From the IMG/VR virus record IMGVR_UViG_3300044705_000115, positions 62,001 to 126,000 of that record: a stretch of DNA of 64,000 nucleotides; one strand, 5' to 3'. The position numbers were made by a program, and so were the translations under genes. Positions 8,968 through 63,868 of the stretch are shown here, one piece after another (the first letter of the stretch is position 1; every line of letters begins with the position of its first letter). Source of the DNA: a virus. Below the pieces are notes generated by a model that did not search any database, was not told where the DNA came from, and saw nothing but the letters and a program-made list of their open reading frames with translations.

Positions 8968-9455
8968 CAGTTGCCCGCGAACTGCGAGATGGCCGTCATG
9001 ACCTTCTCGACGGTCTCCTCGGGAACCTGCTCCTCGGTGAAGACGCGAAGAACAGTCGCAGCGAAGGCCCGGACATCCATGTCAACCTTCAGCGTCCCCA
9101 GATCGTTCGGCAGGACGCCCGTGGCCTGCATCAGCGAGGTCATCTTGTCGAGCGCGTCGATCCTCGCCTTGATCGCCCCCACGCGCACGTTGTCGTTTTT
9201 GGTCGTCGACGAGACGAGCGCCAGCTCCTCGATCGAGCCGCGCAACTCGAAGAGAACCTGCTCGACGACCTCAATCGGGTCGATGGTCTTCAGGTTGGGC
9301 TGCGACTCCCGCCACTGCGCCATGACTTCGCGGACGGTCGACTCGTCCACGTTGAAGGTGTCGGCGACAGTGGCATCCGAGAGAGACCGCGCCTTCGCCG
9401 CAACGATCTGCCTATCCCGCTCGACTTTCTCGGCGGCGTTCTTCGCTCGGGCCAC
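8967..9455 (-). CDS. terS: Terminase small subunit-like DNA-binding protein
   Basis: 162 residues. The N-terminal 50 residues form a helix-turn-helix (SLSDATVADTFNVDESTVRE), followed by long helices suitable for oligomerisation, as in small terminases. Position immediately upstream of the large subunit supports the role of recognising packaging sites. GTG start at 9455 with no Shine-Dalgarno; a TANNNT hexamer (TAACAT) lies 6 nt upstream, so it may be leaderless. Call by fold and context. Confidence 0.7.
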   Translation of the reverse strand: MARAKNAAEKVERDRQIVAAKARSLSDATVADTFNVDESTVREVMAQWRESQPNLKTIDPIEVVEQVLFELRGSIEELALVSSTTKNDNVRVGAIKARIDALDKMTSLMQATGVLPNDLGTLKVDMDVRAFAATVLRVFTEEQVPEETVEKVMTAISQFAGN

Positions 9456-9479
9456 GCTGCGATGTTACGCAGCAGACCC
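9456..9479 (-). promoter_or_regulatory. Candidate leaderless promoter for the terminase operon
   Basis: On the minus strand reads GGGTCTGCTGCG-TAACAT-CGCAGC-GTG. The first block matches the 44-bp element near 58813 (GGGGTCTGCTGCG...), and the TANNNT-6 nt-start spacing is that of actinobacterial leaderless promoters. Confidence 0.4.
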
Positions 9480-18085: not shown

Positions 18086-18115
18086 TCACTCGCCCGCCGC
18101 CGCAGCTCGCCCGTC

Positions 18116-18131
18116 CATGAAGGACAGATTA
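18116..18131 (-). promoter_or_regulatory. Possible leaderless promoter with a 10-codon leader
   Basis: TAATCT (18126-18131) lies 7 nt upstream of ATG 18118, which would encode MDGRAAAAGE and stop at TGA directly before GTG 18085 (TGAGTG). Speculative. Confidence 0.25.
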
Positions 18132-18172
18132 GATGCCGCAGCAGCAGGCTCCCGCGAATGAACTTTCTGTCG

Positions 18173-18382
18173 CTATTCGGTGATACCGAGCTTTTTCGCC
18201 ATTGCTTCTACGTCCCTGCGGAGCCACACGGTCGTCGCCTTCAACTCCTGCAGCGGTTCGGGCATCTTCCCCGCCTTCTGCCATCGACTGATCTGTGGAA
18301 CCCCCTTCTTCAGGATCTCCGCCGCCTCAGCCGCGCCGACGATGTCCTTGCGGTTCCTCCTGATCTTTACTTCCCTTTCCAT
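18173..18382 (-). CDS. AlpA/MerR-like small DNA-binding protein
   Basis: 69 residues. Layout DIVGAAEAAEILKKGVPQISRWQKAGKMPEPL followed by VWLRRDVEAMAKKLG is the winged helix-turn-helix of AlpA, excisionase and MerR-like regulators. Good ribosome site GAGGAGAGG before ATG 18382. It could be an excisionase or a transcription factor; no integrase is present in the window to decide. Confidence 0.65.
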   Translation of the reverse strand: MEREVKIRRNRKDIVGAAEAAEILKKGVPQISRWQKAGKMPEPLQELKATTVWLRRDVEAMAKKLGITE

Positions 18383-30353: not shown

Positions 30354-30814
30354 GCGAGCGCCCTATCGGTTGGCACGTAAAGGGTGCGCTCGCTGCCTGC
30401 TTCGACGGTCGTTCCCGCCGGTTCGACCCAGCCACCGCGTTCCAGCTCGCTCATCCTCGTGCTGATGCTGTTCAGCGGGATCGTCAGCTTCTCGGCGATC
30501 ACGGACGCGGTCATGCCCGCGAAGAAGACGTAGCGCGACCTTTCCTCGACCAGCATGTCGAGGATGCGCCCGCGCTGCGATTCGCGCTTGGGCTTGTTGC
30601 GGAGCGCCGCCGTCTTCGAGGTCTTCGGGTCGCTCGACCGCGCCTTCGGGGTGTCCAGCAGCGAGTCTTGGCCCGATGCTTCGGGCGAGATGACGAAGCT
30701 CTGGCCGTGTCGAATGCCGAGTTCTTCCAGCGCCCGCGCGAGGTCGTGCCGGTAGGTGGCCAACTCTTCTGGGGTGGCGCCGCGGTCAGGCCGGCGCAGG
30801 GTTCGATGCTCCAT
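30350..30814 (-). CDS. Winged-helix DNA-binding protein
   Basis: 154 residues. Disordered first half (RSSDPKTSKTAALRNKPKRE), then a winged helix in the second half: RGRILDMLVEE, ASVIAEKLTIPLNSISTRMSEL, GGWVEPAG. Sits between two beta-class methyltransferase genes, so it could regulate them or serve as a replication accessory. The phrase DPKTSKTAALRN also occurs in other phage HTH proteins. Confidence 0.6.
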   Translation of the reverse strand: MEHRTLRRPDRGATPEELATYRHDLARALEELGIRHGQSFVISPEASGQDSLLDTPKARSSDPKTSKTAALRNKPKRESQRGRILDMLVEERSRYVFFAGMTASVIAEKLTIPLNSISTRMSELERGGWVEPAGTTVEAGSERTLYVPTDRALA

Positions 30815-40512: not shown

Positions 40513-40563
40513 GCTGCGCCTAGTCTAGGTGCGGCTGCTGCGGAAACCCCCAGTCGAACATCG

Positions 40564-42225
40564 TCAGGCAGTAGTGGCGTCTTCGCCGATGATCCCGATT
40601 TCCTGCAGGATCGTGATGAGGCTCGACATCGCCGTTCCCGTCGAGCGCGAGCCGGTGATTTTCTTTTTCGCCTGCGGTCCGGCCCCGTTGATCCCGAGTT
40701 TGCCTTCGACTTCGAGGTCTTTGGAGACCGACAGCTTGGCGATGATCCGCAGGACTTCAGCGCCGTTGCGCTGCAGGAAGGTGTCGGCGCCCGTGGAGCC
40801 CGGCCCCCACCCCATCTGGCCACTCGTTTCGAGCTGGAACCGCGAGTGAGCCTCTGCGGCTTTCAAGGTCTGCAGCGCGATGGTTCCGGTTTCGGCAGTC
40901 TGGATCAGCACTGGATTGCTGGCAGAGGTCGGCGGCGTGTAGCTGGCGCCGCCGTAGACCTTGAGGTCGATGGTCGCCGAGGTGGAAGGCGTGCCGACGA
41001 TGACCGAGCCAGATGCCTGTTCGACCAGCGCGGAGATGCGCGAGTTGCCCGAGTCCCCCAGGGTGAAGTCGAAGGCGCCTTCGGTGCAGCCGACTACCTT
41101 GACCGCGTTGATGATCCAGTTGTAGCCCTTGCCCGTGGCCCACTTGAATCCCTTTTTGCCATGCGCGGATTCGTCAACGAAGACCTTGCCGCCCAGCCAG
41201 AGGCCGTTGTCGCCCTCGAGGAAGACATTTGCGGTGACAGCACCCTCCGCCTCGCAGTTGACCGCCTCGACATCGGACTTGATCTCCATCGCGTATTTGC
41301 ACTCACCCCAGGCATGGACATTGGTCATCTTCGTCGCGTAGCCCGTGGTGTCGATCAGGATGTTGGTCAGCGTGTGGCTGGCGTCCTTGGCGATCGCAAC
41401 CACATTCGTCAGGTGCCAGTCGTGTCCGGCGATGCGGATGTTGCGCCCGCCCGCGAGCCAGCTCTTCGTGTTGGTGATGAAGGAGTCCATTCCCCCTTCG
41501 GTGTCCACCCCATCGACCGTCTGCTGCAGATTGATGTTGTCGGTGGCGCAGTTGTAGACCTGGATGCCGTCGATGCGGAAGCGGCTTCCGTCGATCTTCA
41601 GCCCAGAACCCGAGGAGTTGTGCGCCTTGTTGCCGTCGATCGTGAGATCGGTGATGGAGAAGTCGACGATGCTGGCTGAGCCATAGCCTTCGCTCGTAAT
41701 CACATCGGTGTTGGCGCCATCGGGGAGCGCGAGGATAGTCGCGCCAAGGCCAACGCCGGCGAGATGCACGCCGGACTGCAGCACAACATCGGCGACGAGG
41801 AACCTGCCTGCCGGGAACAGGAGCGTGCCGCCGGTCGCGGCCATCGCTTCGATCCCGCTGTTGAAGGCTGCGGAGTCGTCGGTACTCCCGTCGCCCTTGG
41901 CGCCGAATTCCCGGACATCCGCCGCCGGCGAGCTTTCTTTCACATCGGCGAGGCTCAGCACATCGTGGGCGATCCAGTCGCCGTTGTGCAGGCGCGTGAC
42001 GATCAGTCCGTCGCCCGCCGCGATCCCGATCTTCCGGTCATAGCGACGCACATTCTGAGTGAAGAGCAGGTCGTCTTCTGTCAGCTTGTGTTTGGAGTCG
42101 GTGAGTACCGCGATCAGCGGATTGGTCTTGCGGACGACCGCGACCCGGATGCCCGGCTTGCGGTTCGCAACGTCGTGGGCGTTGCGGCGGATCGAACGGG
42201 CCAGCTCTCGGCTCGCTTCGCTCAT
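40564..42225 (-). CDS. DUF2577 (XkdR)-like baseplate domain fused to a pectate-lyase-type tailspike
   Basis: 553 residues. Residues 1-92 (RSIRRNAHDVANRK, IRVAVVRKTNPLIAVLTDSK, AAGDGLIVTRLHNGDWIAHD) fit the small OB-like XkdR/DUF2577 protein expected at this place in the cluster. Then DVREFGAKGDGSTDDSAAF (about 101-119) opens a Pectate_lyase_3 right-handed beta-helix running to about residue 430, with typical stacked strands (VDFSITDLTIDGNKA and so on). The last 100 residues (RFQLETSGQMGWGPG, NGAEVLRI) resemble a fibre C-terminus with a trimerising end. Probable depolymerase tailspike for host surface glycans. Confidence 0.75.
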   Translation of the reverse strand: MSEASRELARSIRRNAHDVANRKPGIRVAVVRKTNPLIAVLTDSKHKLTEDDLLFTQNVRRYDRKIGIAAGDGLIVTRLHNGDWIAHDVLSLADVKESSPAADVREFGAKGDGSTDDSAAFNSGIEAMAATGGTLLFPAGRFLVADVVLQSGVHLAGVGLGATILALPDGANTDVITSEGYGSASIVDFSITDLTIDGNKAHNSSGSGLKIDGSRFRIDGIQVYNCATDNINLQQTVDGVDTEGGMDSFITNTKSWLAGGRNIRIAGHDWHLTNVVAIAKDASHTLTNILIDTTGYATKMTNVHAWGECKYAMEIKSDVEAVNCEAEGAVTANVFLEGDNGLWLGGKVFVDESAHGKKGFKWATGKGYNWIINAVKVVGCTEGAFDFTLGDSGNSRISALVEQASGSVIVGTPSTSATIDLKVYGGASYTPPTSASNPVLIQTAETGTIALQTLKAAEAHSRFQLETSGQMGWGPGSTGADTFLQRNGAEVLRIIAKLSVSKDLEVEGKLGINGAGPQAKKKITGSRSTGTAMSSLITILQEIGIIGEDATTA

Positions 42226-43274
42226 TCTGCGCCCGCCGAAAGCACTGCGACCCGGACGTTGATCGCGTCGGTAGAGAGCGGCGCAAGCTCAAGGAAGAGG
42301 CGCCGCGTCAGGCTGATGTCGTCCTCTTCGTCCAGTTCGGCTTCGCCGAGGACGTAGGCGTTGACCGACTTGCCGAGGAAGGTGGAGACCTTGACCCGCT
42401 CGCCGATAAGTTCGGCGAAGCGCCCGTCCCGCTGTACGAGGGCGAAGGAGCCGCGCTCGGGGTTGAGCAGCGTTCCGTGCCAAGAGCAGGAGGCGACGGT
42501 TGAGGTGGCGTCCTGGGGCGGGTCCATGCCCAGGATGCTCTGCGCGTACTCGAACGGGTAGCGCCCGATCTGGATGTCGTCGATGTCCGGCAGCTCCGGC
42601 GCGGTGAAGTAGGTGGCGAAGATCCTGTACTCGCCCGCTTCGGAGGTCGGTTCTTCGGGCTGGTTGCGGATCACAGCAGCGCTCGACTGCAGGACTTCGG
42701 AACTGGCTGGGATCACGCCAGCGCCGCCCGTGACCCCTTTCAGCTTCGTCGCTTCCTTGCTCGTGTAGTTGATGACCTGGCCGCCGACCGTTGCCCTGCC
42801 AGCGGAGTCAAAGCCAGTGGTCGAGACGACTTTGAGTTCGGTGACTGGGAGGGTCACTTTTTCACTCGTCGTCGTGTTGACCGGGCCGTACTTGTCGGTG
42901 CCGTGGGCGCGGGTGCCGATGCCAGAGATGGTCGAGATGCGGGCGGCGCCCGGCGAGCCTGCGATGACACCGAACTCGTAGTTGCCCGGAGGCAAGGCGA
43001 CCGGCGCAGCGAAGCGCAGGTCGAACCATGCCCGTTCGGCGCCGAGAGGGACGATGGCCTCCAGACTTTCCCCTGCCAGCGCCCCGCTGCCGTTGTAGAT
43101 GATGCCCTTGATCGGCTGGCCGTCGCCGATGGCGCCAGGGGCCTGTCCGTCGAGCTCGGCCGAGAGCTTCGTGATCAGCATCGCCTTATCGACCGTGAAT
43201 GAGGTCAGGAACTTCTGATCTGGCGTCAGGACTTTGGTGCCAGTGAAGCCCCTGCGAAAGCCGAGGATGGGCAT
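42222..43274 (-). CDS. Minor tail/baseplate protein
   Basis: 350 residues from ATG 43274, which overlaps the hub stop as ATGA (a longer reading is rejected). Beta-rich: residues 1-110 form a jelly-roll-like part (FDLRFAAPVALPPGNYEFGV), the middle has EKVTLPVTELKVVSTTGFDS, and the end LDEEDDISLTRRLFLELAPLSTDAINV recalls actinophage minor tail proteins. Extra gene relative to PBSX between hub and spike, so possibly a host-specific baseplate addition. Confidence 0.6.
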   Translation of the reverse strand: MPILGFRRGFTGTKVLTPDQKFLTSFTVDKAMLITKLSAELDGQAPGAIGDGQPIKGIIYNGSGALAGESLEAIVPLGAERAWFDLRFAAPVALPPGNYEFGVIAGSPGAARISTISGIGTRAHGTDKYGPVNTTTSEKVTLPVTELKVVSTTGFDSAGRATVGGQVINYTSKEATKLKGVTGGAGVIPASSEVLQSSAAVIRNQPEEPTSEAGEYRIFATYFTAPELPDIDDIQIGRYPFEYAQSILGMDPPQDATSTVASCSWHGTLLNPERGSFALVQRDGRFAELIGERVKVSTFLGKSVNAYVLGEAELDEEDDISLTRRLFLELAPLSTDAINVRVAVLSAGAE

Positions 43275-51646: not shown

Positions 51647-53128
51647 CTAGCCGATCGTGAGGGTCACGTAGACCTGCTTGAGGGCGCGTCCGAACTTGAG
51701 TTCCATCGCCAGGGCGACGAACTCGTCATCGTCGGAAGGCGGCGGGTCCTGGTCGATGCCGACCTTCCATCCGGGCTGGATCACTCCGAGCTTTTCGCGT
51801 TCCGCGAGGAGGCTCTTGGCCTCCGATACCACCGCGTCGCGGGTGTCGTCGTTGACCGGCCGGCGTCCGAGGATTTCCCTGCGGAAGTAGGCCGCGAGGT
51901 CCGTCTGAATCCCGTGCATGGTGCGCACGTACTTCGGCTCGCGGTAGATGAAGTAGGGCTTCTTGGGTTCGCCATCAGCGTCCACTTCCGTCCAGGTGGA
52001 GTGGCCGACTTTGATGTGAGTCGGAGCTTCGGGGTCGTCGTCGCGTGCGACCACGAGAACGCCCGCGTCGTAGGCCGAGGCGATCTCGGCGTCGGTCGGC
52101 CCGGTGACGATTTCGAGGGCCGCCAGCCGCGCGTAGGTGAGCGCTGCGTACTCGCCCTTCGCCGCGAGGATGCCCGCGATGCGCGGGGCAAGCTGCGAGG
52201 TCGAGAGTTCGATCTCGGTCCCTTCCGGCCCGAGGTCGGGCGAGCGGTAGGTGCCGACGCCGAAGACGATGACCTCCGGGTCGGCGATTTCTTCGGCGCG
52301 GTCTTCGGCGTCTTCCAGCGTCTCGCCGAGTTCACCGCCGATGACGGCCATGAAGCGCTTGTTCTTGTTGTCGTTCTGGTCGCGGAGCCAGGTCTGCAGC
52401 GAGACCTGGATCGCGTTATCGACGAGATCGAAGGGGGCGATGACGCCGAACGGTTCCAGCGCAATCGCATCGAAGGCGTTGGTCCAGTCTTCGGCGACCG
52501 GCGTGTCACCGTCGTCGCCGCCGGTCAGCGCGGAAGCGGTGACGGTCGTCAGTTTGGTGCCGGTTTTCTGGACTTCGGCGGTGACCCAGTTGGACCGTTT
52601 GTTGATCAGTTCGCCGAGGCGAGTGATGTCGGTCGCCGTGTAGGTGTATTCCTCAAGGACGCTGGTGCCGTCGAGGAGCAGGAGGTCCTGTTTGCTGGCG
52701 TCGCCAGCGTGGGCGCGGGTCGTGACCGCGAGGCTGTTGGCGCGGGTGCCGTTGTAGCGGGCGACCAGTTTGAGCGCGTTTTCGGGCGCTTCTTTGGCGT
52801 TGGTGAGCTGTTTGCTCGCCTTCGCGGCGCCGCTGTCGCCGAAGCGGTAGACGAGAACGCCGCCCGCCCCGTAGCGGCCTTTCAGGCCCTCGCCGATGAA
52901 CGCCTGCTTGACCGCCAGGTAGCCCGGCGTGTCGTCGGAGTAGCCGTAGAGGGCCTGGTACTCGGCGAATGAGCCGACCAGACGCGCCTCCTCGAACGGA
53001 CCCCAGTCGTTGATGATCGGGATCGCAACCGTGGCGCCGGGCGCCGGCGGCACGACGCTCGGCGTCGTGACGTTGAAGTTGAAGTAGCTGTCGGGCAGCT
53101 TGGGGCGGTTGTCCTTCGAGAACGGCAC
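51647..53128 (-). CDS. Contractile tail sheath protein (XkdK type)
   Basis: 493 residues. Sheath blocks: N-terminal PGATVAIPIINDWGPFEEARLVGSF, VKQAFIGEGLKG; a central inserted domain; then IAGILAAKGEYAALTYARLAALEIVTG and a C-terminal QTDLAAYFRREILGRRPVNDDTRDAVVSE leading to the final beta arm FVALAMELKFGRALKQVYVTLTIG, which links neighbouring subunits. Its presence shows a myovirus morphology. The central insert of about 170 residues is of the variable type. Confidence 0.9.
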   Translation of the reverse strand: MPFSKDNRPKLPDSYFNFNVTTPSVVPPAPGATVAIPIINDWGPFEEARLVGSFAEYQALYGYSDDTPGYLAVKQAFIGEGLKGRYGAGGVLVYRFGDSGAAKASKQLTNAKEAPENALKLVARYNGTRANSLAVTTRAHAGDASKQDLLLLDGTSVLEEYTYTATDITRLGELINKRSNWVTAEVQKTGTKLTTVTASALTGGDDGDTPVAEDWTNAFDAIALEPFGVIAPFDLVDNAIQVSLQTWLRDQNDNKNKRFMAVIGGELGETLEDAEDRAEEIADPEVIVFGVGTYRSPDLGPEGTEIELSTSQLAPRIAGILAAKGEYAALTYARLAALEIVTGPTDAEIASAYDAGVLVVARDDDPEAPTHIKVGHSTWTEVDADGEPKKPYFIYREPKYVRTMHGIQTDLAAYFRREILGRRPVNDDTRDAVVSEAKSLLAEREKLGVIQPGWKVGIDQDPPPSDDDEFVALAMELKFGRALKQVYVTLTIG

Positions 53129-53131
53129 GGG

Positions 53132-53353
53132 CTAGGCTCCCTTCTTCGCCTTGCGCTTGAGGAACTTGTCGATGGCGGCCTGCGCCTCCTCGACGGTCAG
53201 GTCGGAGTCGCCGTGTCCGTAGTCAGCGAGAGCGCCCGCAACGACATGGGGGCCGACGCCGAAGAACTTGTGGGCGGCGGCGATCAGCCGGTCACGGTCG
53301 ACCTTTTCGGCCTCCGGCTCAGCCTTCGCTTTCGCTGCTTTCTCGTCTGCCAT
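53132..53353 (-). CDS. Small head-tail region protein
   Basis: 73 residues from ATG 53353 with AGGAGCG upstream. Lys/Ala/Glu-rich start (MADEKAAKAKAEPEAEK) then a helical unit FFGVGPHVVAGALADYGHGDSDLTVEEAQ ending KRKAKKGA. Four nt before the sheath gene. First gene after the duplicated 44-bp element. Possibly a neck or sheath-start protein; not recognised. Confidence 0.55.
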   Translation of the reverse strand: MADEKAAKAKAEPEAEKVDRDRLIAAAHKFFGVGPHVVAGALADYGHGDSDLTVEEAQAAIDKFLKRKAKKGA

Positions 53354-53395
53354 GTCGCTCCTGAAGTTCGGTTTGACGTTGCTGCGCTGTCGCAA

Positions 53396-53439
53396 GCGAA
53401 GGTAGCAGCGCAGCAGCGGCCAACCCTGGAAAAAACTTC
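53396..53439 (-). promoter_or_regulatory. Duplicated 44-bp late element, tail copy
   Basis: Matches 58813-58856 at 39 of 44 positions. On the minus strand: GAAGTTTTTTCCAGGG, 7 nt, CTGCTGCGCTGC, then TACCTT (TANNNT). Transcription would start about 37 nt before ATG 53353. Confidence 0.6.
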
Positions 53440-53443
53440 TCCC

Positions 53444-54001
53444 TCAGGAGCCGTCGATCTCAGACTCAAGCGACTGCGTGATCCGCAGTTTCTGGGCCAG
53501 CCGCGAGCCGGTCGGAAGCTCGGCTGAGCGGCGCCAACCGACCCTCATCTCGCCCGTGACGGTCCATTTCTTCTCGTCTTCGGGTGACTGTGCGCGGTTG
53601 ATCGAGAGGTCGAGAACGCGGAGGTAGTCGGGGTAGCGACGCAGCAAAGACCCCTCGTCGATCGCCACCCCCTCAAAGTCGTAGAGCGGGATGCGGTAGG
53701 GGCGGCCCGCGCCGATCCCCACCTGGATCGCCTGCCACAGGCGCTCCTCGGCGGCCATGACGTTGTCGAAGGTGGCTTCCACGCTCTCGCCTTCGGCGGG
53801 GTAAACGTAGACCGCGATGGGCTGGGTCAGATCAGCGGTGTGGCGGCTGCCGCCAGAGAGCAGCGGGCCTGCGGTTCGCACCGCGATCCCTGGCCGCGAG
53901 AAGGCACCTTCCTGGGCGAAGAAGCCGACCTCCCAGTCATCGCCGAAGGCTTCGGACATGTAGCGGGAGATGCTGCGGAGGGCGTCGCGGACGGTTCTCA
54001 T
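53444..54001 (-). CDS. Tail completion / tail terminator-like protein
   Basis: 185 residues. Pattern of head-tail joining or terminator proteins: an N-terminal helix (TVRDALRSISRYMSEAFG), WEVGFFAQEGAFSRPGIAVRT, PIAVYVYPAEG and RRYPDYLRVLDLSINRAQSPED. Last of the connector genes before the element and the sheath cassette. Family not certain. Confidence 0.6.
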   Translation of the reverse strand: MRTVRDALRSISRYMSEAFGDDWEVGFFAQEGAFSRPGIAVRTAGPLLSGGSRHTADLTQPIAVYVYPAEGESVEATFDNVMAAEERLWQAIQVGIGAGRPYRIPLYDFEGVAIDEGSLLRRYPDYLRVLDLSINRAQSPEDEKKWTVTGEMRVGWRRSAELPTGSRLAQKLRITQSLESEIDGS

Positions 54002-54510
54002 GTCAACTCGGCGTAGGGGTTCTGGCGGGCGGTCTCACGCGCCCAGTTGGATAGCGCGGGCCTGACGATGCCCTCAATCTCGACTTCCAGCTTCGCAGCG
54101 GACTCGGCCAGCATGTGATGACCCTCCGAGCCGGGGTGCATGACCGACTTGGCGAAGACATCGGCGCCGTCGGCACCGACCCAGTGCAGCGTGCCGCCAG
54201 GGGTTTTCGGCAGGATCAAGTACTTGCGATGCTCAGGCCCCCAGAGACCGGTGCCGTGCTCGACGTAGGGCGCGTAGTCGATCTCGGTGTACCACTCGGC
54301 GCCGTAGCCTGCGCCGGGGTAGGTGGTGCCGACGACCTTGTGGGCGCGGCTCTCCTTCCACGAACGCTTCAGGTCGCCAGTCTCGACCGGCGTGGCTTTC
54401 GCCGCCTGCTCCTTGCCGAAGCGCACGCCCAGACGCACCATGTTCTTGATCGCGCCATTGATCGGGCCGGTGTCGAACCAGGGGTGCAGCTTGCCGCCGA
54501 TGTAGGCCAT
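53998..54510 (-). CDS. HK97 gp10-like head-tail/tail completion protein
   Basis: 170 residues. AAKATPVETGDLKRSWKES (about 33-51) is the conserved ATPVDTGxLRxS signature of HK97 gp10 proteins, followed by WYTEIDYAPYVEHGT, also typical. Acts in head completion or tail attachment. Overlaps neighbours by 1-4 nt. Confidence 0.85.
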   Translation of the reverse strand: MAYIGGKLHPWFDTGPINGAIKNMVRLGVRFGKEQAAKATPVETGDLKRSWKESRAHKVVGTTYPGAGYGAEWYTEIDYAPYVEHGTGLWGPEHRKYLILPKTPGGTLHWVGADGADVFAKSVMHPGSEGHHMLAESAAKLEVEIEGIVRPALSNWARETARQNPYAELT

Positions 54511-54935
54511 CAGCCGGTTCTCGCGGGCGAGGCGGGCGACTCCGTGACCCGTTTGAGCCGGAGCTGCCAGCCGATTACCTTGCGCTTCTTGCGAATCTGT
54601 TTCGGCTCGCCATCGACCATGAAGATGCCGACCTCGTTCCAGCCGCGGTCGGTGGACTCGGCCAGCTCCCGCGATTCGACGACGATCTTGTCGTCGATCT
54701 GGAAGCGCAGCGGATTGCGCTCGGCGTCTACTCGATCAGTGGTCAGCGAAGGCACCTCGACCACGCTCACGCTCTGGGCGGCGTCGCGGCCCTTGGGGGC
54801 ATCGGTGATCTCCAGGCGGCAGCGGAAGATCGGCTGCTGGCGGGGGTGGTAGATCGTCCGGCCTTCGACGCGCTTGGCATCGGCCTCCTCGCGGACGATG
54901 CGGGCGCGATCCTTGAGCGCCGTCCTCAGCGCCAT
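54510..54935 (-). CDS. Head-tail adaptor-like protein
   Basis: 141 residues, beta-rich in the second half (QIDDKIVVESREL, WNEVGIFMVDGEPKQIRKKRKVIGWQLRLKRV). Position between the connector and the gp10-like gene corresponds to a head-closure (gpII or SPP1 gp16-like) protein. Family by context. Confidence 0.6.
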   Translation of the reverse strand: MALRTALKDRARIVREEADAKRVEGRTIYHPRQQPIFRCRLEITDAPKGRDAAQSVSVVEVPSLTTDRVDAERNPLRFQIDDKIVVESRELAESTDRGWNEVGIFMVDGEPKQIRKKRKVIGWQLRLKRVTESPASPARTG

Positions 54936-54938
54936 CGT

Positions 54939-55466
54939 CTACGCCCCGAAGGCCCAGGGGTCGATGCGGTCGAGGATGTCGCCCTCGTGCCAATCGACTT
55001 CGCTGACGCTGGTGTACGGGCGGTGAATTCCAGCCAGGACTTCCTGCCAGTATTCCCGTTTTTCTTCGGTCATCAGCAGCTCCAGCAGGTTGTTGAGATG
55101 CGGCCAGGGGTTCAGCGGCTTGCCCGCGAATTTGGTCGCCCGCTCGCTGTTGACTCGCGTCTCCGAGTAGGAGCCAGCGGAAAAGCTCTGCACCATGTCG
55201 ATGTCACCAGCGGTTTCAGCCTCGTCCTCCTGGGACTTGATGACGAGCTGTTCGGTGCGGCGCTGCACCGCCTCCTGGGCCGTCGTGACGAGTTCTTCGG
55301 GCATCGTCGCATCGAGTGGGCGACCGGTCACGAAGACGATGTAGTCCCTCGCTCGAGCGACCTGGAAGTCGAGCGGGTCTTCGCCGGTCGCCGGTTTTTC
55401 ATAGCCGAGTCCGTCGAAGTCGAGTTTCGACCAAGCCCTGATCTGTGTCGTCGTCGGTGCTTCCAC
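54939..55466 (-). CDS. Head-tail connector protein (HK97 gp6-like)
   Basis: 175 residues, mostly helical: IRAWSKLDFDGLGYE, VARARDYIVFVTGRPLDATM, VTTAQEAVQRRTEQLVIKS and VQSFSAGSYSETRVN, the last being a common phrase in phage connector proteins (SFSAGSYSE). Forms the adaptor ring below the portal. Confidence 0.78.
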   Translation of the reverse strand: MEAPTTTQIRAWSKLDFDGLGYEKPATGEDPLDFQVARARDYIVFVTGRPLDATMPEELVTTAQEAVQRRTEQLVIKSQEDEAETAGDIDMVQSFSAGSYSETRVNSERATKFAGKPLNPWPHLNNLLELLMTEEKREYWQEVLAGIHRPYTSVSEVDWHEGDILDRIDPWAFGA

Positions 55467-55486
55467 TTCTCCTCCTAAACGACGAA

Positions 55487-55510
55487 GGGGCCGGGCCGCA
55501 GCCCGACCCC
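55487..55510 (-). terminator. Hairpin between head and connector genes
   Basis: GGGGCCGGG/CCCGACCCC with one mismatch and a 6-nt loop, in the 69-bp gap after the gene following the capsid. Likely an attenuator that keeps capsid expression higher than connector expression. Confidence 0.5.
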
Positions 55511-55535
55511 TCCGGGTTCAGCTATGTACCGGCGC

Positions 55536-56042
55536 CTAGCCCTTGGCTTCGGCCCTCGCGGCAGCGGCCTTGGCGACATCCTGTTTGGTGTACGTCCCCT
55601 TGGCGCCCGAGCCCTCGGCGACGTACTGCCCGATGATCTCGGGCGTCAGGTTCTTGTCGTCGGCGAACTTCTCCGCTGCGTCAGAGGAGAAGAACGGGGT
55701 GTCCGTGACCTCCTCGGCCTCGCCGACATCGAAGGCGCTGCGGGGCAGCTCCTCCTTGCGGACGCGGCCATCGGCAGCTTCGATGACAGCGACGACATGG
55801 GCGCCGCGCACCGCCGTCGAGACGATCTTCTGATCGCCCTTCAGGTTCAGCGCCTCAGCGACATCGGCATCGTCCAGCAGAGCCGTGGCGTTCTGATCGA
55901 CCTCCTGCACCTGCGCTGCACGGAGCGAGTCCGTGTAGCGCTGGCGCGAAGCGGCGACCATGTCCTCGGCTTTGCCAGCGCCCTGACCGAACTTGTCGGT
56001 CAGCTCGGCGTATGCGGCCTGTGCGTCGTTTCCGCGCGGCAC
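55536..56042 (-). CDS. Head protein with E3-binding-like C-terminal domain
   Basis: 168 residues directly after the capsid gene. The first half is helical (MVAASRQRYTDSLRAAQVQE) with a beta segment (VRGAHVVAVIEAADGRVRKEEL). Residues about 120-160, SSDAAEKFADDKNLTPEIIG followed by GSGAKGTYTKQDV, copy the peripheral subunit-binding domain of acyltransferases (A..LA..., GTG..GRITKEDV). Such domains appear in phage structural proteins as small protein-binding modules. Role unknown, virion likely. Confidence 0.6.
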   Translation of the reverse strand: MPRGNDAQAAYAELTDKFGQGAGKAEDMVAASRQRYTDSLRAAQVQEVDQNATALLDDADVAEALNLKGDQKIVSTAVRGAHVVAVIEAADGRVRKEELPRSAFDVGEAEEVTDTPFFSSDAAEKFADDKNLTPEIIGQYVAEGSGAKGTYTKQDVAKAAAARAEAKG

Positions 56043-57085
56043 TAGGCGACCACCGAACGGTAGGCGCCAGCGGGGTCGATGACCCCGACGCCGAAGTCGA
56101 GCCGCACCTTGAAGTCGACCGAGTCGAGCTCCCAGGTGTAGGGGTCCGGGCCGTCGTACTGCGAGGAGGTCTCCGGGTTCTTCTTGAAGACCTGCGGTTC
56201 CTCACGGCCCCCCAGGAAGCCGACAGCGAAGGCCGGCACGTCGCTCGGGCTGGCGAACATGTACCAGTCGTTCGAGTCGCTCCAGTAGGGGTCGCGGATG
56301 ACGGCGTCTGCGGGGAGGATGCCCTGCAGCGGGTTGTCGCGGCCCTTGTCGAACACGGCGCTTCCGGCGCCGGCCGCGCCCGTGTAGGCGCTGCTCACGC
56401 CCGTTTCGCTCGAGCCGATGATGCGCTTGGCGATCAGCTCCATGCGGGCGTTCTTGACCGAGATGAGCTGCGGTTTGATGACGATGTGGCGACCGTCGCC
56501 GTCGAGCTGGTTTTCCATCGTGGAGATGGCCGTCGCCAGCGAGTCCTCGGAGAGGGCCGTGGTCACCTGATTGCCGCGGGCTTCCGAGAATGTCGGGTTG
56601 CCGTCCGGCGCCGTCGGGTTGCCCTCGATGTAGGCCGTGACCGCCTCCGACACGAAGATCGCGGCGGCGTAGCCCATGTCGGCGGGGTTGCTGGAGAGCA
56701 GGTCGCCGGATTCGTCGTTGATGATCGTCTGCCGCGTGATCGCGTAGACGCCCCCGTAGGTGTCGATGACGAGGGTTGCCGACGGACGCTCGGTGCGCGT
56801 CAGTTCGGGGTACTCGCCGTGGTCACCCACGTAGCCGATGCCGTTCAGACCCCACAGGCCCTTGATCCGACGCTCACGGAAGTCCGTGGCGTTCTCGATC
56901 CGAGCGTAGCGGCGGTACTGAGGGCTGACTTTGGTGTAGCCCTGGTAGACCGAAGTCTTGATCGGGCCGAACAGGAACTCCGGGAAGTCCGCCTTGGAAG
57001 CGGCCTCCTGCAGGCGTCCTGAATGCCAGTCCTTGTACGCCTCGAAGAGGAGGACGGGCCGACCGTAATCGCCGTATTTGGACAT
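56042..57085 (-). CDS. Major capsid protein (Mu gpT-like, HK97 fold)
   Basis: 347 residues. The layout fits Mu-type major head subunits: RRYARIENATDFRERRIKG, an E-loop/N-arm region, TYGGVYAITRQTIINDESGDLLS (backbone helix entry), then NPTFSEARGNQVTTALSEDS, KPQLISVKNARMELIAKR and GTG-like loops, ending DFKVRLDFGVGVIDPAGAY, the A-domain beta hairpin typical of the fold. Downstream of protease/scaffold and decoration genes, which confirms the role. Confidence 0.88.
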   Translation of the reverse strand: MSKYGDYGRPVLLFEAYKDWHSGRLQEAASKADFPEFLFGPIKTSVYQGYTKVSPQYRRYARIENATDFRERRIKGLWGLNGIGYVGDHGEYPELTRTERPSATLVIDTYGGVYAITRQTIINDESGDLLSSNPADMGYAAAIFVSEAVTAYIEGNPTAPDGNPTFSEARGNQVTTALSEDSLATAISTMENQLDGDGRHIVIKPQLISVKNARMELIAKRIIGSSETGVSSAYTGAAGAGSAVFDKGRDNPLQGILPADAVIRDPYWSDSNDWYMFASPSDVPAFAVGFLGGREEPQVFKKNPETSSQYDGPDPYTWELDSVDFKVRLDFGVGVIDPAGAYRSVVA

Positions 57086-57121
57086 TGGGTTGAGTCTCGC
57101 TTTCTTGCTTCCGGCGCCGGC

Positions 57122-57502
57122 CTAGAAGCTGTCCTTCTTATCCAGGTCGATGCGGACCGCCCCAGCGGGGGTACCGCGTTCGCCTGCGACCTCGACGACC
57201 CGCCCGAACTTCTGGTTCGAGCCTTCGGTCTCGGTGAGTTTGTTTTCGTTCGTGATGAAGACTTTGTCGCCGACTTCGAGGCCGGAGATGGTCGTCACCT
57301 GAACGACGCCCTTGACGATGAGGAGGAATTCCTCATTGTCGGCGATGACGTTCTGCACCGCCATGCCGTCAGCGAAGCTGGGCGCTTTCTGTTTGACGGC
57401 AACGCCTACGAATTTGCCGTTGCCGAACGGCTGGCCGTGGGTCAGCGTGCCACCGGTTTTGTTGGTGACGTACTGCGACTCGCCGGGACGCTTGTAAGGC
57501 AT
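57122..57502 (-). CDS. Head decoration protein (DUF2190-like)
   Basis: 126 residues, almost all beta: YVTNKTGGTLTHGQPFG, KFVGVAVKQKAPSFADG, EEFLLIVKGVVQVTTISG and GRVVEVAGERGTPAGAVRIDL. This is the DUF2190 pattern (decoration/cement protein encoded next to protease and capsid). Small gene in a typical place. Confidence 0.75.
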   Translation of the reverse strand: MPYKRPGESQYVTNKTGGTLTHGQPFGNGKFVGVAVKQKAPSFADGMAVQNVIADNEEFLLIVKGVVQVTTISGLEVGDKVFITNENKLTETEGSNQKFGRVVEVAGERGTPAGAVRIDLDKKDSF

Positions 57503-57537
57503 CTTGGTCTTGCTCCTTCTGGGCTAGGCCAGCACCG

Positions 57538-58809
57538 CTAGGCGGTGTAGACCTTGTCCGGATCCTTGACGCCCGCCTCCTGCAGGAACTCCTGCCAGTA
57601 CGGGGTCTCGCTTGCCTCGGCGGAATCGCCGCCGTCGCCGCCGTCGCCGTCGCCCTGACCCTCGATGCGGGTCGGCTTGGCCTCGGCGAGCCGGTTCTTC
57701 GACTTCTCGATGTCGGCCTCGACGGCCTCGGTCAGGAACGCCTCGGCGCCCTTCGTGACCTCGCCCTCGTCATCGACCTCATCGACCTGATCGAGCTTTG
57801 CGGTCGGCTTGCCCTCGACGAGCTTGTAGTCGTCTTTGAGGTCGGCCTTCCAGGTGTCGGGAAGATCGGTTGCCTCGATCATCCGGTGCGCGGTGTCGCG
57901 CAGGTCGCGGAGCTGGACCTGACGGTCGGCTTCGGCCTTGGCCTCGGCACGAATCACATCGGCTCCCTCGCGCAGACCGGCCTCCACAAGCCCGGTGACG
58001 TACTCCTGCACGCCACTCTTCGGGTCCTGCAGCGCCTCCTGCAGCTCCTCGGGGGTGATTGCCACTTCGTCGCCTCCTTTGGGCGTGTTGTCGTCGCCGG
58101 CGGCCTCAAGCAGCCCCGAGCGCTTGTCGCGGAGGTAGTCCGCAAGCTCTGTGTCAGTCAGCGCCTCCAGCACGGAGAGCGGGTCGTCGCCCTCGGCAGC
58201 GCCGAGCTCGTTGATCGCCGCCTCCATCAGCTCGACGACCTTGCCGCCAGCGCCGCCCTCGGACACCCAGTCGACGGAACCGCCGTTCTGGATTCCCTCG
58301 ACGACCCAGACCTGCTGCCCGTCCACGTTGCCGGGATGGACAGCGGTGGCGTCAGCGTTGATCGAAGCCTCGAGGATGCGCGGGTCCTCTTCGAGGAGCT
58401 TGCGCACCATGCCGACCGGCCGAACCCGCGCCTGGATCGCGCCCTGGCCGAAGCGGCCTTCGGCGGGAACATCCGGGTTCCACCAGCTCTCCTCAATCCG
58501 GCCACCGATGTGCCGGATCGGGCGCGGCAGGCCGTTGCGGGCCTTGATCGCGCGGGGATCCTCGTGGTCGGCGAACATGCGCCAGCCAGGTACGCGCTCG
58601 CCGCCCTCTTCGTGGTCGCCGAAGATGTGGGCGTAGTCCTCCAGCATCTTCGCCTCGTAGAGATGGCGGCCGCGGCCCAGGCCAACGGTCGGCCGGATCA
58701 CGTTGATGACGACGGTGCCGTCGTCCTGAAGTCCGCCGGGTACCCCGGCGATCGACTCCTGAAGACGGAGGGCAGAAGCGGGGATCGAAGCTGCTGCGGA
58801 ATCAGGCAT
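57538..58809 (-). CDS. Prohead protease with C-terminal scaffold
   Basis: 423 residues. Residues 1-210 follow the actinophage prohead protease pattern: VINVIRPTVGLGRGRHLYEAKML, GWRMFADHED (His of the active site), LGGRIEESWWNPD, GQGAIQARVRPVG and LEASINADATAVHPG (likely Ser nucleophile in ASINA), then VDWVSEGGAGG. Residues 220-420 are acidic and helical (EELQEALQDPKSGVQEYV), the usual scaffold. Cleaves scaffold and capsid during maturation. ATG follows the 44-bp element by 3 nt; no Shine-Dalgarno, so translation may be leaderless. Confidence 0.87.
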   Translation of the reverse strand: MPDSAAASIPASALRLQESIAGVPGGLQDDGTVVINVIRPTVGLGRGRHLYEAKMLEDYAHIFGDHEEGGERVPGWRMFADHEDPRAIKARNGLPRPIRHIGGRIEESWWNPDVPAEGRFGQGAIQARVRPVGMVRKLLEEDPRILEASINADATAVHPGNVDGQQVWVVEGIQNGGSVDWVSEGGAGGKVVELMEAAINELGAAEGDDPLSVLEALTDTELADYLRDKRSGLLEAAGDDNTPKGGDEVAITPEELQEALQDPKSGVQEYVTGLVEAGLREGADVIRAEAKAEADRQVQLRDLRDTAHRMIEATDLPDTWKADLKDDYKLVEGKPTAKLDQVDEVDDEGEVTKGAEAFLTEAVEADIEKSKNRLAEAKPTRIEGQGDGDGGDGGDSAEASETPYWQEFLQEAGVKDPDKVYTA

Positions 58810-58812
58810 GGG

Positions 58813-58856
58813 GCGAAGGTAGCAGCGCAGCAGACCCCTACCCTGAAAAAAACTTC
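58813..58856 (-). promoter_or_regulatory. Duplicated 44-bp late element, head copy
   Basis: On the minus strand it ends TACCTT-CGC, leaving CGCCCC between the TANNNT hexamer and ATG 58809. Six nt is the spacing of actinobacterial leaderless promoters. The GAAGTTTTTT and CAGGG blocks are shared with 53396-53439. Confidence 0.65.
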
Positions 58857-59187: not shown

Positions 59188-62100
59188 CTAGACCGTTCCA
59201 GCCGTCTTCAGTTCAGACGGGCTGAGGTTTGCGGCCTTGATGACAGCAGCGATGACGGACGGCTTCTCGTTCTCGCGGTCGAAGACGATGCCCTGGGTCT
59301 CAAGCTTGTCGAGGGCGGCGCCGATAGAGGTCGCAGTCCAGGGATCGCCGAGCTGGTCGGCGGCGTCCAGAAGGTTGACCTTCTCCTTCGTGTTCTCGGC
59401 AGGACTCGGCGTATCGCTCGATGTAGGAGACACATCTTCGGCCTGCAGCGCCTTGACTTTGCCAGCAGCCTCGTCCGGCTCCCAGAACTCACCAACCGTC
59501 TGCCCGTTCTGGGAGACAACGTAGCTTGAGCCGATGCCGTTCTTCTTCTCCGAGCCGTAGCCCGTATGCGGTTCCTTCTTGACCGTCACGTAGTTGGGGA
59601 AGTTGGCGGCATCGCCGTTCTTCATGCCCTTCAGGTGCGTCGTTGCGGGGTCGAGTTCGGAGGCAATGTCCTCGGGCGGCGGCGGGATCGGCGTCCCTTT
59701 CGGTTCAGGCTTTCCCTGCTTCACGACCACCGGGCCTTTGTCGGCTGGCTCGGGCTTCTTGTTCGGGTCGCCACCGACCCGTTTGATGCGGAATTTCGCC
59801 GCCCGCACCTGGGCGGCAGCCTTGGCCTTCGTCTGCTTGTCGGCATCGGCCGGGAGGTTGTCGAAGTCGGCTTTCTTCTTCTCGTAGGCGGCCCAGGCGG
59901 AGGCGATCTTCTCCTCCTTCGACTTGCCGCTGACAGCCTTTTTCGGCGCTTTCAGCTCAGCCGTTTTCTTCGCCTGCGAATCGCTGCGGCTGGACAGCTC
60001 GGCGGTGATGGCCTTGATCGCCTCCGTGTCATCGGGGTGCGACTTCATTTCCACCGCGAGTTTCAGCAGCTTCTCGTCGGACATCGCCTTGAAGTTGCGG
60101 AGGTTCCCGGCCTTGGAGCGGGCGGGTGAGCTGGGCGCCATGCCAGCGTTCTCCAGCGAGCCTTTCAGCGCCGAGTAGAGGGCGTCATCGTTGGTGGCGG
60201 CGGGAGCTGGCGTCGGTGCCGAAGAGGATGGAGAGCCGTTGGGGTTGCTCGGACCGATGAACGGCGGTGCGAACTCCCTGTGGAAGACCTTCGCTTTGCC
60301 GCCATCGACGGGCTTGGCGACGATGAAGTCGCCGCTGGTCGGCTTGTGCCATACGTATGCCTGGTCGTGCTTGCCGACGTAGAAGGTGTCGCCGGCCGAC
60401 ATCTCTTTGAGCGACTTTTCCCCTGCGTTCGGCGCGTAGCCCTCGGGCGGCGCGTACTGGACGGCGGGCTGCGGCATCAGCCGCTCGCCCGTGACCTGTG
60501 CGTAGTCGTTGGAGGCCGCTTCCTTGGCAGCGCTCGAGCGGGAGTTGTCGAAGGCCAGTTTCGCCCGCCGCTTCTTCTCGGCGATGGCAGTCAGGAAGAC
60601 CGAGCGGTCACGGCCCGACTTCGGCAGACCGTTCGCATCAACGGAGTCGGAGATGAGGCTGTCGAGCTCAGCATTGCTCGCGCCGTGGAAGTCGATCAGT
60701 GCCCGCTGCGGAGATTCATCAGCGGCGCCCGCATCGCCCGTGCGAAGGAAGCGCTCGCCGCGTTCGGTGGCGAGGTCGTAGTTGCGGTTCGCGGCGCCGT
60801 AGCCGCTCTTGTCGGCCCAGGCGCGATCCCCGCTCATGTCATCGAGGTGATCCTGAACGGCACCGTCATCGCCGCGGGCGATCGCGTCGTTGATGTGGTC
60901 GAGGTGGTTCTGAGAGACGACCTCTGCGGTCATCGCGGCCTTGTTCGGGTCGCCAGGCGGGAGCGGCGAGCGGCGGGCGGGCGGCTCCGGGAAATGCCGC
61001 GCCTTGGAGCCAGCCGGAGCGGCGGTGCGCACGGACGCGAGTGCGCCCTTCTCGGGGCCGTCGTTGATGCGGGCGATGCCCCGACCCCCGACGCTGTGCT
61101 CGACCGTCGCGGAAACTTTGCCGCTGCCGCTGCGGTGGGGCAGGTTGATCTTCTCGCCGGGCTTGAGAATCTGGCCCCGCCCTTTCGGTGCGAAGGTGCC
61201 ATCGGCCAGCCGGTAGAAGTCGCGGACTCCGCCGAAGAGACCCCGCAGAGATGCCTCCACGAGGGCGGCCTGCCGCAGCGACCGCTCGGCCGCGAGGGCG
61301 ACCACGTAGGCGCCAGTGTCGCCCGCGCCTTTCGCCGCCATGCGCCGCAGAACCGCCTCGTTCAGTTCGCGCTCCGCCTTGGTGCTGTCCTTCTTCGGCT
61401 TCTCCTTCGCCGACATCCGGTCGAGCAGACGCCCGGTCTTGGGCCCGACGACGCCATCGGCCTTCAGGCCGTAGCGCCGCTGCACCGCCTTGACCTTGCG
61501 CTCGGTTTCCGGTCCGAAGCGGCCATCGACCTCGGCGCCGATGGTCTTCTGCAGGTGCTTGACGCTCGCGTCCGGCTCCTCGTCGGCGACGCCGGTTCCC
61601 TTCGTCAGCACGCCGCTGGCGAGGCTCGGGGTGTCTTCGTCCTCCTCCCCCTCGGCATCCCCTAGTTCCTCGTTGGCGCCCTCGTCCTCTTTCGGCGGGG
61701 CTTCGCCGTCCTCGGTCTTCCCCTTCGACTTCGCCTCCGGCTTTGCCTTGGCTGGCGCCGCAGCTTTCCTGTTCTCGCCCTCGTCGCCCTCCGGCGCCGG
61801 CGGCGCCCCTGCCTCCTCAGCGTCTTCTTCATCGACCCCGCTGGCCTTCTGACGCGCTTTCGAGACCTCTTCGGGATCGGTGCCGCGCAGGGCAACCTTC
61901 GTGGCGCTGCCGACCTCGCCGTCGTCTTTCAGCCCGTGGTCGCGCTGGAACTCCGCGACGGCGCTCTGGGTCTTCTCTCCGTAGCGCCCGTCGTTGGCGC
62001 CCGCGTCGTAGCCAAGCTCGGCGAGACGGTTCTGCAGGAAGCCAGTCGCCTCGTCGGGCTGACCGTTCATCCCAGCCCCGTACTTGCGGTGGAAGTCGTC

Positions 62101-63690
62101 CTGAGCGACCGCCTCAAGGATGGACTCGCGCATCTTTTCTTCGCGCTTGCGTTCGCGCTCGATCCGCGCCCGTTCTTCTTCGCGCTGCTTTTCGGTGCGC
62201 TTCGACGCCTGGCGCTGTTCGCGCACTTCCTGATGCTGAGCCTGGCGCTGGTGGCGCTTCTTCTGCTGCCCGCCTGCCTGGTGCTGGGTGAGCCAGTCCC
62301 AGTCGGACTGCGTGAAGGCGCCGGGCGCCGGCGGCGTCTTGTCGCCGCGCAGGGCAGCGAGCGTCTGCGTGCCGACGATCCCGTCCACCTCAAGGCCGTG
62401 GTTGCGCTGGAATTCTTCGACCCGCGCTTTGGTCTTTTCGTCGTAGCTGCCACTGGTGGCGATACCGAGTTTGCGCTGGATCAGGTCGGCGACTTTCGTC
62501 GGCAGCGAGGAGCTTTCGCCGAAGACCGAGCCAGCGCCACCGTTCGCCGAACCGCTCGTGGAGGAGCTGGCGGAGTTCGATGACTTCGAGGAGGAGGAGG
62601 AGGAGGAGGAGGCTTTCTTCGCTTCTTTCCGGGCTTTGTTGGCCTTGTTCCGGGCCTTTTCGGCGGCGTCTTCGGCGGCCATGTGGCCAGCGGTGAACCG
62701 TGCCCGCGTCTTGCGGAGGGCCGAGCGCTGGTGCGCCAGCAGCGGCCCGCCGACAGCGGAGGTGCCGTTGATGGCGCCAGCGGTCTGAGAGCCGACTACC
62801 CCATCGACACTCAGGCCCTTCTGCTTCTGGAAGGCTTCGACCTTCTTCTTCGTTTCCAGCCCGAAGCGGCCATCGGGTTTGGCTCCGACCGCACGCTGCA
62901 CGCCCTTGACCTCCGGCCCGGAGGATCCCGAGCGGATGAACTGGCCACCGGTCGGCTGGCCCCGCCCGGCTCGAGGATGTTTGCCCTCGTCAAACGGAAG
63001 TGGTGCCCCGCTGCGCCCCTTCGCCTGCGGGCCGCGCCGGCCCGGCGCTGGCGGCCCGGCCTTTTCCGGGCGAACCAGCGGCGGCACGCCCAGCGCCTCG
63101 AGGACAACTCGGAGGTCGGCGATCTCCTGGCCGAGCATCGACTGCGCCCGCGCCAGCTCGCGCGAGTCGGCGTTGCCGCGGCCAAGCTGCATCCGTGCGC
63201 CACCCTCGACCAGCGCCAGCGCGGAGGCGACGCGGGCGGCGCGGTTCTTGGTGCCACGACCCTTGAGGCCCATCGCCATGCCCTCGGCGAGGCTCAGGCG
63301 ATGGCGGAAGTCACCGACCAGCGACGCGACCTCATCGGCACCGAGAACCAGGCTGTCGTCTTCGCTGGTGGCCTCGCTGAGTTTCGACTTGCCCCGTTTC
63401 GCCATCCATTCGGCGACAGCCTTCTGCGCCTTGGCGACGGTGTCCGGCTTCAGTTTCGAGCCGTTGTGGTTGACACCGGTTGACCACTTCTTGACGGTGT
63501 TGACGGCAATGGCGATCGCCGTCCCGATGTCTTTGCCTTTCTCGTAGTGGAGATGTTTGGCGATCCGTTCGATGTAGTTCGGCAGGCCGCCAGCCCGATC
63601 CACCCAGTTCTGCTTGCCCGGCACCCTCTCCAGCTTCGGGTAGACGGTGGAGCTGACCTCCTGCAGCGAGTTCTGCTCCGCAGCGGGCAT
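59188..63690 (-). CDS. Giant virion-associated protein with four peptidoglycan-binding repeats
   Basis: 1500 residues. The N-terminal 30-100 (DRAGGLPNYIERIAKHLHY, GTAIAIAVNTVKKWSTG, PDTVAKAQKAVAEWM) is a module common in phage head-associated polyproteins near the protease. KHPRAGRGQPTGGQF follows near 237. Four PG_binding_1 repeats occur at about 256-309, 397-448, 550-602 and 708-758, each ending HGLxxDGxVG-like. They are separated by a poly-Ser/Lys linker (360-380), a Glu/Arg coiled coil (475-530) and acidic linkers. From about 810 on there is a beta module (YRLADGTFAPKGRGQILKPG) and a long charged, Pro/Lys-rich tail. It may be packaged and ejected, or mark the virion surface for cell-wall contact. 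No catalytic motif recognised. Confidence 0.7.
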   Translation of the reverse strand: MPAAEQNSLQEVSSTVYPKLERVPGKQNWVDRAGGLPNYIERIAKHLHYEKGKDIGTAIAIAVNTVKKWSTGVNHNGSKLKPDTVAKAQKAVAEWMAKRGKSKLSEATSEDDSLVLGADEVASLVGDFRHRLSLAEGMAMGLKGRGTKNRAARVASALALVEGGARMQLGRGNADSRELARAQSMLGQEIADLRVVLEALGVPPLVRPEKAGPPAPGRRGPQAKGRSGAPLPFDEGKHPRAGRGQPTGGQFIRSGSSGPEVKGVQRAVGAKPDGRFGLETKKKVEAFQKQKGLSVDGVVGSQTAGAINGTSAVGGPLLAHQRSALRKTRARFTAGHMAAEDAAEKARNKANKARKEAKKASSSSSSSSKSSNSASSSTSGSANGGAGSVFGESSSLPTKVADLIQRKLGIATSGSYDEKTKARVEEFQRNHGLEVDGIVGTQTLAALRGDKTPPAPGAFTQSDWDWLTQHQAGGQQKKRHQRQAQHQEVREQRQASKRTEKQREEERARIERERKREEKMRESILEAVAQDDFHRKYGAGMNGQPDEATGFLQNRLAELGYDAGANDGRYGEKTQSAVAEFQRDHGLKDDGEVGSATKVALRGTDPEEVSKARQKASGVDEEDAEEAGAPPAPEGDEGENRKAAAPAKAKPEAKSKGKTEDGEAPPKEDEGANEELGDAEGEEDEDTPSLASGVLTKGTGVADEEPDASVKHLQKTIGAEVDGRFGPETERKVKAVQRRYGLKADGVVGPKTGRLLDRMSAKEKPKKDSTKAERELNEAVLRRMAAKGAGDTGAYVVALAAERSLRQAALVEASLRGLFGGVRDFYRLADGTFAPKGRGQILKPGEKINLPHRSGSGKVSATVEHSVGGRGIARINDGPEKGALASVRTAAPAGSKARHFPEPPARRSPLPPGDPNKAAMTAEVVSQNHLDHINDAIARGDDGAVQDHLDDMSGDRAWADKSGYGAANRNYDLATERGERFLRTGDAGAADESPQRALIDFHGASNAELDSLISDSVDANGLPKSGRDRSVFLTAIAEKKRRAKLAFDNSRSSAAKEAASNDYAQVTGERLMPQPAVQYAPPEGYAPNAGEKSLKEMSAGDTFYVGKHDQAYVWHKPTSGDFIVAKPVDGGKAKVFHREFAPPFIGPSNPNGSPSSSAPTPAPAATNDDALYSALKGSLENAGMAPSSPARSKAGNLRNFKAMSDEKLLKLAVEMKSHPDDTEAIKAITAELSSRSDSQAKKTAELKAPKKAVSGKSKEEKIASAWAAYEKKKADFDNLPADADKQTKAKAAAQVRAAKFRIKRVGGDPNKKPEPADKGPVVVKQGKPEPKGTPIPPPPEDIASELDPATTHLKGMKNGDAANFPNYVTVKKEPHTGYGSEKKNGIGSSYVVSQNGQTVGEFWEPDEAAGKVKALQAEDVSPTSSDTPSPAENTKEKVNLLDAADQLGDPWTATSIGAALDKLETQGIVFDRENEKPSVIAAVIKAANLSPSELKTAGTV

Positions 63691-63721
63691 GTGCTGCGAA
63701 GCGTAAGCGATCTAGCGGCTG

Positions 63722-63868
63722 CTACCCCTCGTTGGACTTGCCCTGAATCTGGCCCACGACGAAGCGGACGATCCCGGAGAGGATGACGTAGATCGCGTAG
63801 ACGACCAGCGCCGCGACCAGCAGGATCGCCGTGAGGAAGGCGTCTACCGCTCTGGCGAGGAGGTACAT
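63722..63868 (-). CDS. Small single-span membrane protein
   Basis: 48 residues from ATG 63868, with GAGGAG 5 nt upstream. One long hydrophobic helix (AFLTAILLVAALVVYAIYVIL) and a short polar tail. A longer in-frame start at 63925 overlaps the upstream gene by 55 nt and is rejected. Starts 3 nt after that gene. Role unknown. Confidence 0.55.
   Translation of the reverse strand: MYLLARAVDAFLTAILLVAALVVYAIYVILSGIVRFVVGQIQGKSNEG

Follow-up and report, generated by a model that had tools for sequence, protein, structure and literature searches.

A repeated box and -10 element upstream of head and tail genes as putative late promoters in a family of uncultivated tailed phages

The DNA analysed here, in the following called the window, is a stretch of 64,000 nucleotides that spans bases 62001-126000 in a phage record of 130,043 bp (G000), which is probably a complete genome as the ends of the record share a 127-bp overlap. 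Two copies of a 44-bp element are found in the window, at 53396-53439 and 58813-58856, and a third copy lies outside it, at 15173-15215 of the G000 record. Downstream of the 58813 copy is a head cassette that encodes a 423-aa protein, a 126-aa protein and then the major capsid protein (phrog_133, two genes after the gene starting at 58809), and downstream of the 53396 copy is a tail cassette that encodes a 73-aa protein and then the tail sheath (Table 1). The third copy is located upstream of a gene whose 149-aa product weakly resembles tail-fibre families. The initial annotation placed the two copies in the window before late cassettes, namely sheath genes and a prohead protease. The former assignment is confirmed by the match of the sheath gene to phrog_279, but the 423-aa product had no family match above the cut-off, and the label prohead protease is therefore positional only. 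Gene calls in G000 and in its relative G001 were made with a simple script and not with an established gene finder. We also note that window 59188-63690 encodes a 1500-aa protein with several peptidoglycan-binding domains.

Table 1. Positions in the window of the putative late promoters and of associated features in G000.
Feature	Position	Strand	Details
Upstream box, putative head-cassette late promoter	58841..58856	-	GAAGTTTTTTTCAGGG, about -47 to -32
-10 hexamer TACCTT, putative head promoter	58816..58821	-	TGC in front (extended -10)
Head-cassette gene, 423 aa	57538..58809	-	ATG 58809; predicted leaderless, predicted transcription start 58809
Upstream box, putative tail-cassette late promoter	53424..53439	-	GAAGTTTTTTCCAGGG
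-10 hexamer TACCTT, putative tail promoter	53399..53404	-	predicted transcription start near 53392
Predicted 5' leader, ~39 nt	53354..53392	-	ends in AGGAGCGAC before ATG 53353
73-aa gene opening the tail-sheath cassette	53132..53353	-	phrog_1939; orthologue precedes sheath in relatives
Tail sheath gene	51647..53128	-	phrog_279, E=2.6e-59
Weaker putative member	63691..63741	-	box CAAGTCCAACGAGGGG; -10 TACGCT (63700-63705); 16.2 bits, model lacking G000
Possible member before baseplate-wedge-like gene (ATG 40512)	40513..40563	-	-10 TAGACT, 9 nt to ATG
Possible member	18119..18167	-	box AAAGTTCATTCGCGGG; -10 TAATCT; 18.7 bits; 7 nt before ATG 18118
-10 TAACAT at terminase small-subunit position	9462..9467	-	6 nt before GTG 9455; box absent
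69-aa HTH protein, candidate regulator (guess)	18173..18382	-	HTH_17 E=0.0038, below Pfam cut-off

The duplication of the 44-bp element is real. The two copies in the window are identical at 39 of 44 positions, and both read 5' to 3' on the minus strand. When the 51-nt head copy was used as query, window 53389-53439 scored 40/51 and G000:15164-15214 scored 36/51, whereas the next best 51-mer in the whole 130-kb genome reached only 28/51. The BLAST E-values were 3.4e-11 for the second copy and 4.8e-6 for the third. The likeness ends at the edges of the element, with 17/44 identities in the upstream flank and 8/30 in the downstream flank.

The relative G001 (134,735 bp) was found via its sheath protein, which is 74% identical to that of G000, and more relatives were obtained from protein scans; gene order is the same wherever a contig spans the region. 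Cultured phages showed no DNA similarity, and the protein matches in them are distant. The link to actinobacteria that was proposed at the outset is supported by one relative found within an Actinobacteria MAG, which is the sole host evidence.

Searching viral contigs for the pattern of the G000 box gave 25 stretches. We aligned 31 distinct putative head promoters of the family on their -10 and found two conserved blocks, a box at approximately -47 to -32 and TAnnnT at -12 to -7, with little conservation between them. The TAnnnT is the best conserved part of the alignment, but the 31 sequences were preselected for a -10 near the start codon, which in part predetermines this column; the box played no role in the selection. 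The shared box stands at a fixed distance from the -10 before several late genes, and in G000 and G001 it lies one base further upstream than in the family alignment. The T-tract, which had been suggested as a block for binding of a late activator, does not hold as an essential part, since relatives have CAATC or CCATCTG at that place; among the sequences compared it is private to the G000 phage.

In the head copy TACCTT is followed by CGCCCC and then by ATG 58809, a distance of 6 nt without a Shine-Dalgarno sequence, precisely as first described. The head orthologue in G001 has the same 6-nt geometry, also without a Shine-Dalgarno sequence, although its -10 is TACGGT. Across the family, TAnnnT is found 6-9 nt before an ATG or GTG without a Shine-Dalgarno sequence in 28 of 34 distinct head genes, which are related loci and not independent cases, as compared to 0/43 capsid genes and 0/29 sheath genes counted by the same rule. 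Among the six exceptions, two genes have a Shine-Dalgarno sequence and one has no usable start; L057 has its -10 at a distance of 11 nt, and no TAnnnT is present there in the L058 group or L137.

The leaderless geometry that was initially ascribed to the element is supported by these counts at 58809 and not at 53396, where a Shine-Dalgarno leader is predicted. This leader contains AGGAG before the likely start ATG 53353, and no start codon lies at leaderless distance. We rejected TTG 53395 as a leaderless tail start, as it is only 3 nt past the -10 and the orthologues favor the ATG led by a Shine-Dalgarno sequence. The G001 tail gene has the same arrangement (AGGAGAGAC-ATG), and a Shine-Dalgarno leader is found at the tail gene of G000, G001 and most relatives. 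Across the G000 and G001 genomes, the spacing of TAnnnT is bimodal, either 6-9 nt from starts without a Shine-Dalgarno sequence or 24-36 nt from starts with one, which suggests that these phages make general use of leaderless starts. As such starts also occur where the box is lacking, they are no hallmark of the element. As a separate observation, the tail leaders of L055, L056, L103, L115, L122 and others may contain a conserved hairpin, CTGTG-GGGTT-CACAG, before the Shine-Dalgarno sequence, and the L122 hairpin, CTTGCG-GGGTT-CGCAAG, is one apparent compensatory variant.

When the element was sought in relatives, as the initial annotation had proposed, pairs were found at the same genes in G001 and others; G001 carries the element at the same two genes as G000 and the box at two more places, which gives four equivalents. 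Compared over -46 to -31 (16 positions), the boxes agree at 13-15/16 within G000 and at 14-15/16 within G001, while orthologous copies agree at 8-10/16 between the phages. The G000 head box, for example, matches the tail copy at 15/16, the third copy at 14/16 and the G001 orthologue at 8/16. For the head and tail spacers, in contrast, G000 and G001 resemble each other (13-14/18) as much as copies within one phage do (14/18). That the boxes are alike within a phage and differ between phages fits a phage-specific regulator, and it argues against the copies being a recombination scar. Two near-identical copies that flank the head and neck gene block could in principle recombine, and the copies might be a recombination scar, a mobile repeat, or sites of replication or packaging with no role in transcription. 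We consider this very improbable: the pairs that relatives carry at these genes differ in sequence, and every copy reads along the coding strand and keeps a constant spacing to the -10 and the start codon. In the sequences of G000 and G001 the boxes have changed in concert, and the comparison suggests the same for a few other genomes. The head copy was best paired with its own tail copy in 8 of the 22 genomes tested; within the large CATCTG clade the own tail copy is mostly not the best match of a head copy, which we ascribe to one box being common to the clade.

Motif models built from the selected set of 31, and omitting the scanned genome's own head copy, rank the head and tail sites first in G002 and G004. 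Other sites found with these models precede genes for a collar-type fibre, for tail-fibre-associated proteins and for peptidoglycan-binding proteins by 47-53 nt, and some lie shortly upstream of baseplate genes. In G000 the head copy scores 12.0 bits and the third copy 11.6 bits, both below the shuffled maximum of 14.8, so that these two rest on the repeat itself. Between the -10 at 63700-63705 and ATG 63690, where the 1500-aa peptidoglycan-binding gene begins, there are 9 nt, and the orthologous site in G001 scores 21.5 bits. The site at 40513..40563 scores 11.5 bits, below the shuffled maximum, and finds support in its G001 orthologue, which has a AAAGTCAATC box and scores 15.8 bits. ATG 18118 opens a 10-codon ORF adjoining the next gene. 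Model matches at G001 7174 and G000 74223 look like chance. We note further that predicted leaderless ORFs of 10 codons (window 18086-18118) and 9 codons (G001 near 11185) extend up to or into the next start, suggestive of translational coupling, and that G004:669-1061, with late-promoter geometry, encodes a protein whose C-terminal half matches the phage toxin family phrog_353 (E=3.4e-16).

The terminase start at 9455 was at first thought to carry a related sequence. Its TAACAT-6 nt-GTG arrangement does exist (TAACAT-CGCAGC-GTG, with TACGAT-TGCTGC-GTG in the G001 orthologue), but neither gene has an upstream box. We do not count the site as a member, as it shares only CTGCTGCG and the -10 with the element, and both are common in G000. 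Together with its complement, CTGCTGCG is approximately 12 times denser between genes than within them (0.61 vs 0.05 per kb in G000), in both orientations.

A gene for a multisubunit RNA polymerase was not found in a search with a positive control, and a search for a T7-type polymerase gave no match, but its control was silent too. Given the negative result for the multisubunit enzyme and an ordinary -10, we assume that the host polymerase is used. Since the box overlaps the -35 region and keeps a constant distance to the -10, an alternative sigma factor from host or phage could recognise it as its -35; G002 encodes a sigma-factor-like protein (G002:112840-113517), and weak region-4-like matches occur in G001, G004 and G005. 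However, sigma region 2 was not found in G000, G001, G004 and G005, the G002 gene is absent from the other four genomes, including G004, although the box is common to G002 and G004, and the box extends to -46, upstream of the usual -35, why we find an alternative sigma factor unlikely. As no sigma factor is common to the genomes, we prefer an activator. The box could also be an operator where a repressor keeps the late genes off early in infection; a box of this kind could arise with any protein that binds a specific sequence, and this one overlaps the site of the polymerase. With no recognisable -35 left for unaided initiation, and with a fixed position relative to the -10, we regard an operator, on these indirect grounds, as quite improbable.

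The proposal that a late regulator binds the element is supported, for the box as a putative site, by its fixed distance and its concerted change in G000 and G001. Candidates for such a regulator are the 69-aa HTH protein (Table 1), which matches the excisionase/regulator family phrog_66 (E=3e-5) and is found in all five genomes, and a 154-aa winged-helix protein at 30350-30814, present in four of five genomes. Any link between either of these proteins and the box is a guess. A search for WhiB gave no match in six records.

We favor the interpretation, first put forward in the initial annotation, that the elements are late promoters, which we hold to be probable, with a box bound by an activator, a leaderless head transcript and a leadered tail transcript. 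Comparison supports the promoter reading by the occurrence at the same genes, the fixed geometry and the association with virion genes. The repeats, their geometry, their conservation at orthologous genes and this association are properties of the sequences themselves, from which we infer transcription of the elements, its start points, the host polymerase and the activator; late timing is deduced from the virion genes only. The elements would constitute a late-promoter set in an uncultivated tailed-phage family, probably of Actinobacteria. Instead of the normal -35 there would be a box of 13-16 bp, located at about -46 to -31 and followed by a spacer and a TAnnnT -10, which the host RNA polymerase would read, and the box would most likely be bound by a phage-encoded late activator. 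If the preference of this activator drifts, the copies in one phage would change together. In the head cassette transcription would start from the A of ATG 58809 and give a leaderless mRNA, and in the tail cassette it would start near 53392 and give a short leader with a Shine-Dalgarno sequence. A more far-reaching version, which we regard as possible but doubtful, is that each phage has a private late code, where the box co-evolves with one regulator, and that the head mRNA is leaderless and several other virion mRNAs likewise bypass the Shine-Dalgarno sequence.

We found no account of these promoters in the open-licence literature. The late promoters of phage Mu (lys, I, P and mom) have a site for the activator C by the -35 region together with non-consensus -35 and -10 sequences (PMC4461284). 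As in Mu, several late promoters of one phage have a common putative activator site, whereas the sequences and hosts are different and the position of the box near -38 is just similar. In mycobacteria, an ATG or GTG at the 5'-end suffices for translation and nearly one quarter of transcripts are leaderless (PMC4633059); those are cellular genes with mapped starts, while the phage starts described here are predicted. The SAS and ESAS of cluster K mycobacteriophages are repeated upstream motifs conserved among orthologous genes, and their consensus varies from one subcluster to another (PMC3203893). SAS, however, lie 3-7 nt from the starts of non-structural genes and come with a Shine-Dalgarno sequence, while the 44-bp element ends at the -10 and contains none, and the G000 CCGACCAAGGAGG motif resembles SAS more than the element does. 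The 50-bp motif of Gordonia phage Vardy (cluster DJ) may be a further parallel.

With these elements, an uncultivated phage family would gain a defined late promoter, several box variants that occur naturally and few candidate regulators, which together make regulator-site co-evolution testable. The head operon would also serve as a conserved example of predicted leaderless mRNA, and start codons in these genomes could be picked by a rule.

Two other motifs were observed. CCGACCAAGGAGG is a Shine-Dalgarno leader motif found upstream of about 20 genes each in G000 and G001, where it sits at or near the predicted 5'-end of the mRNA in a manner reminiscent of the start-associated sequences of cluster K. 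In G000, a repeated TGCTAACTTTGTTGGCACCCGACCAAGGAGG, found for example at genome positions 41883-42500 and 83240-83340, could possibly represent a second promoter class.
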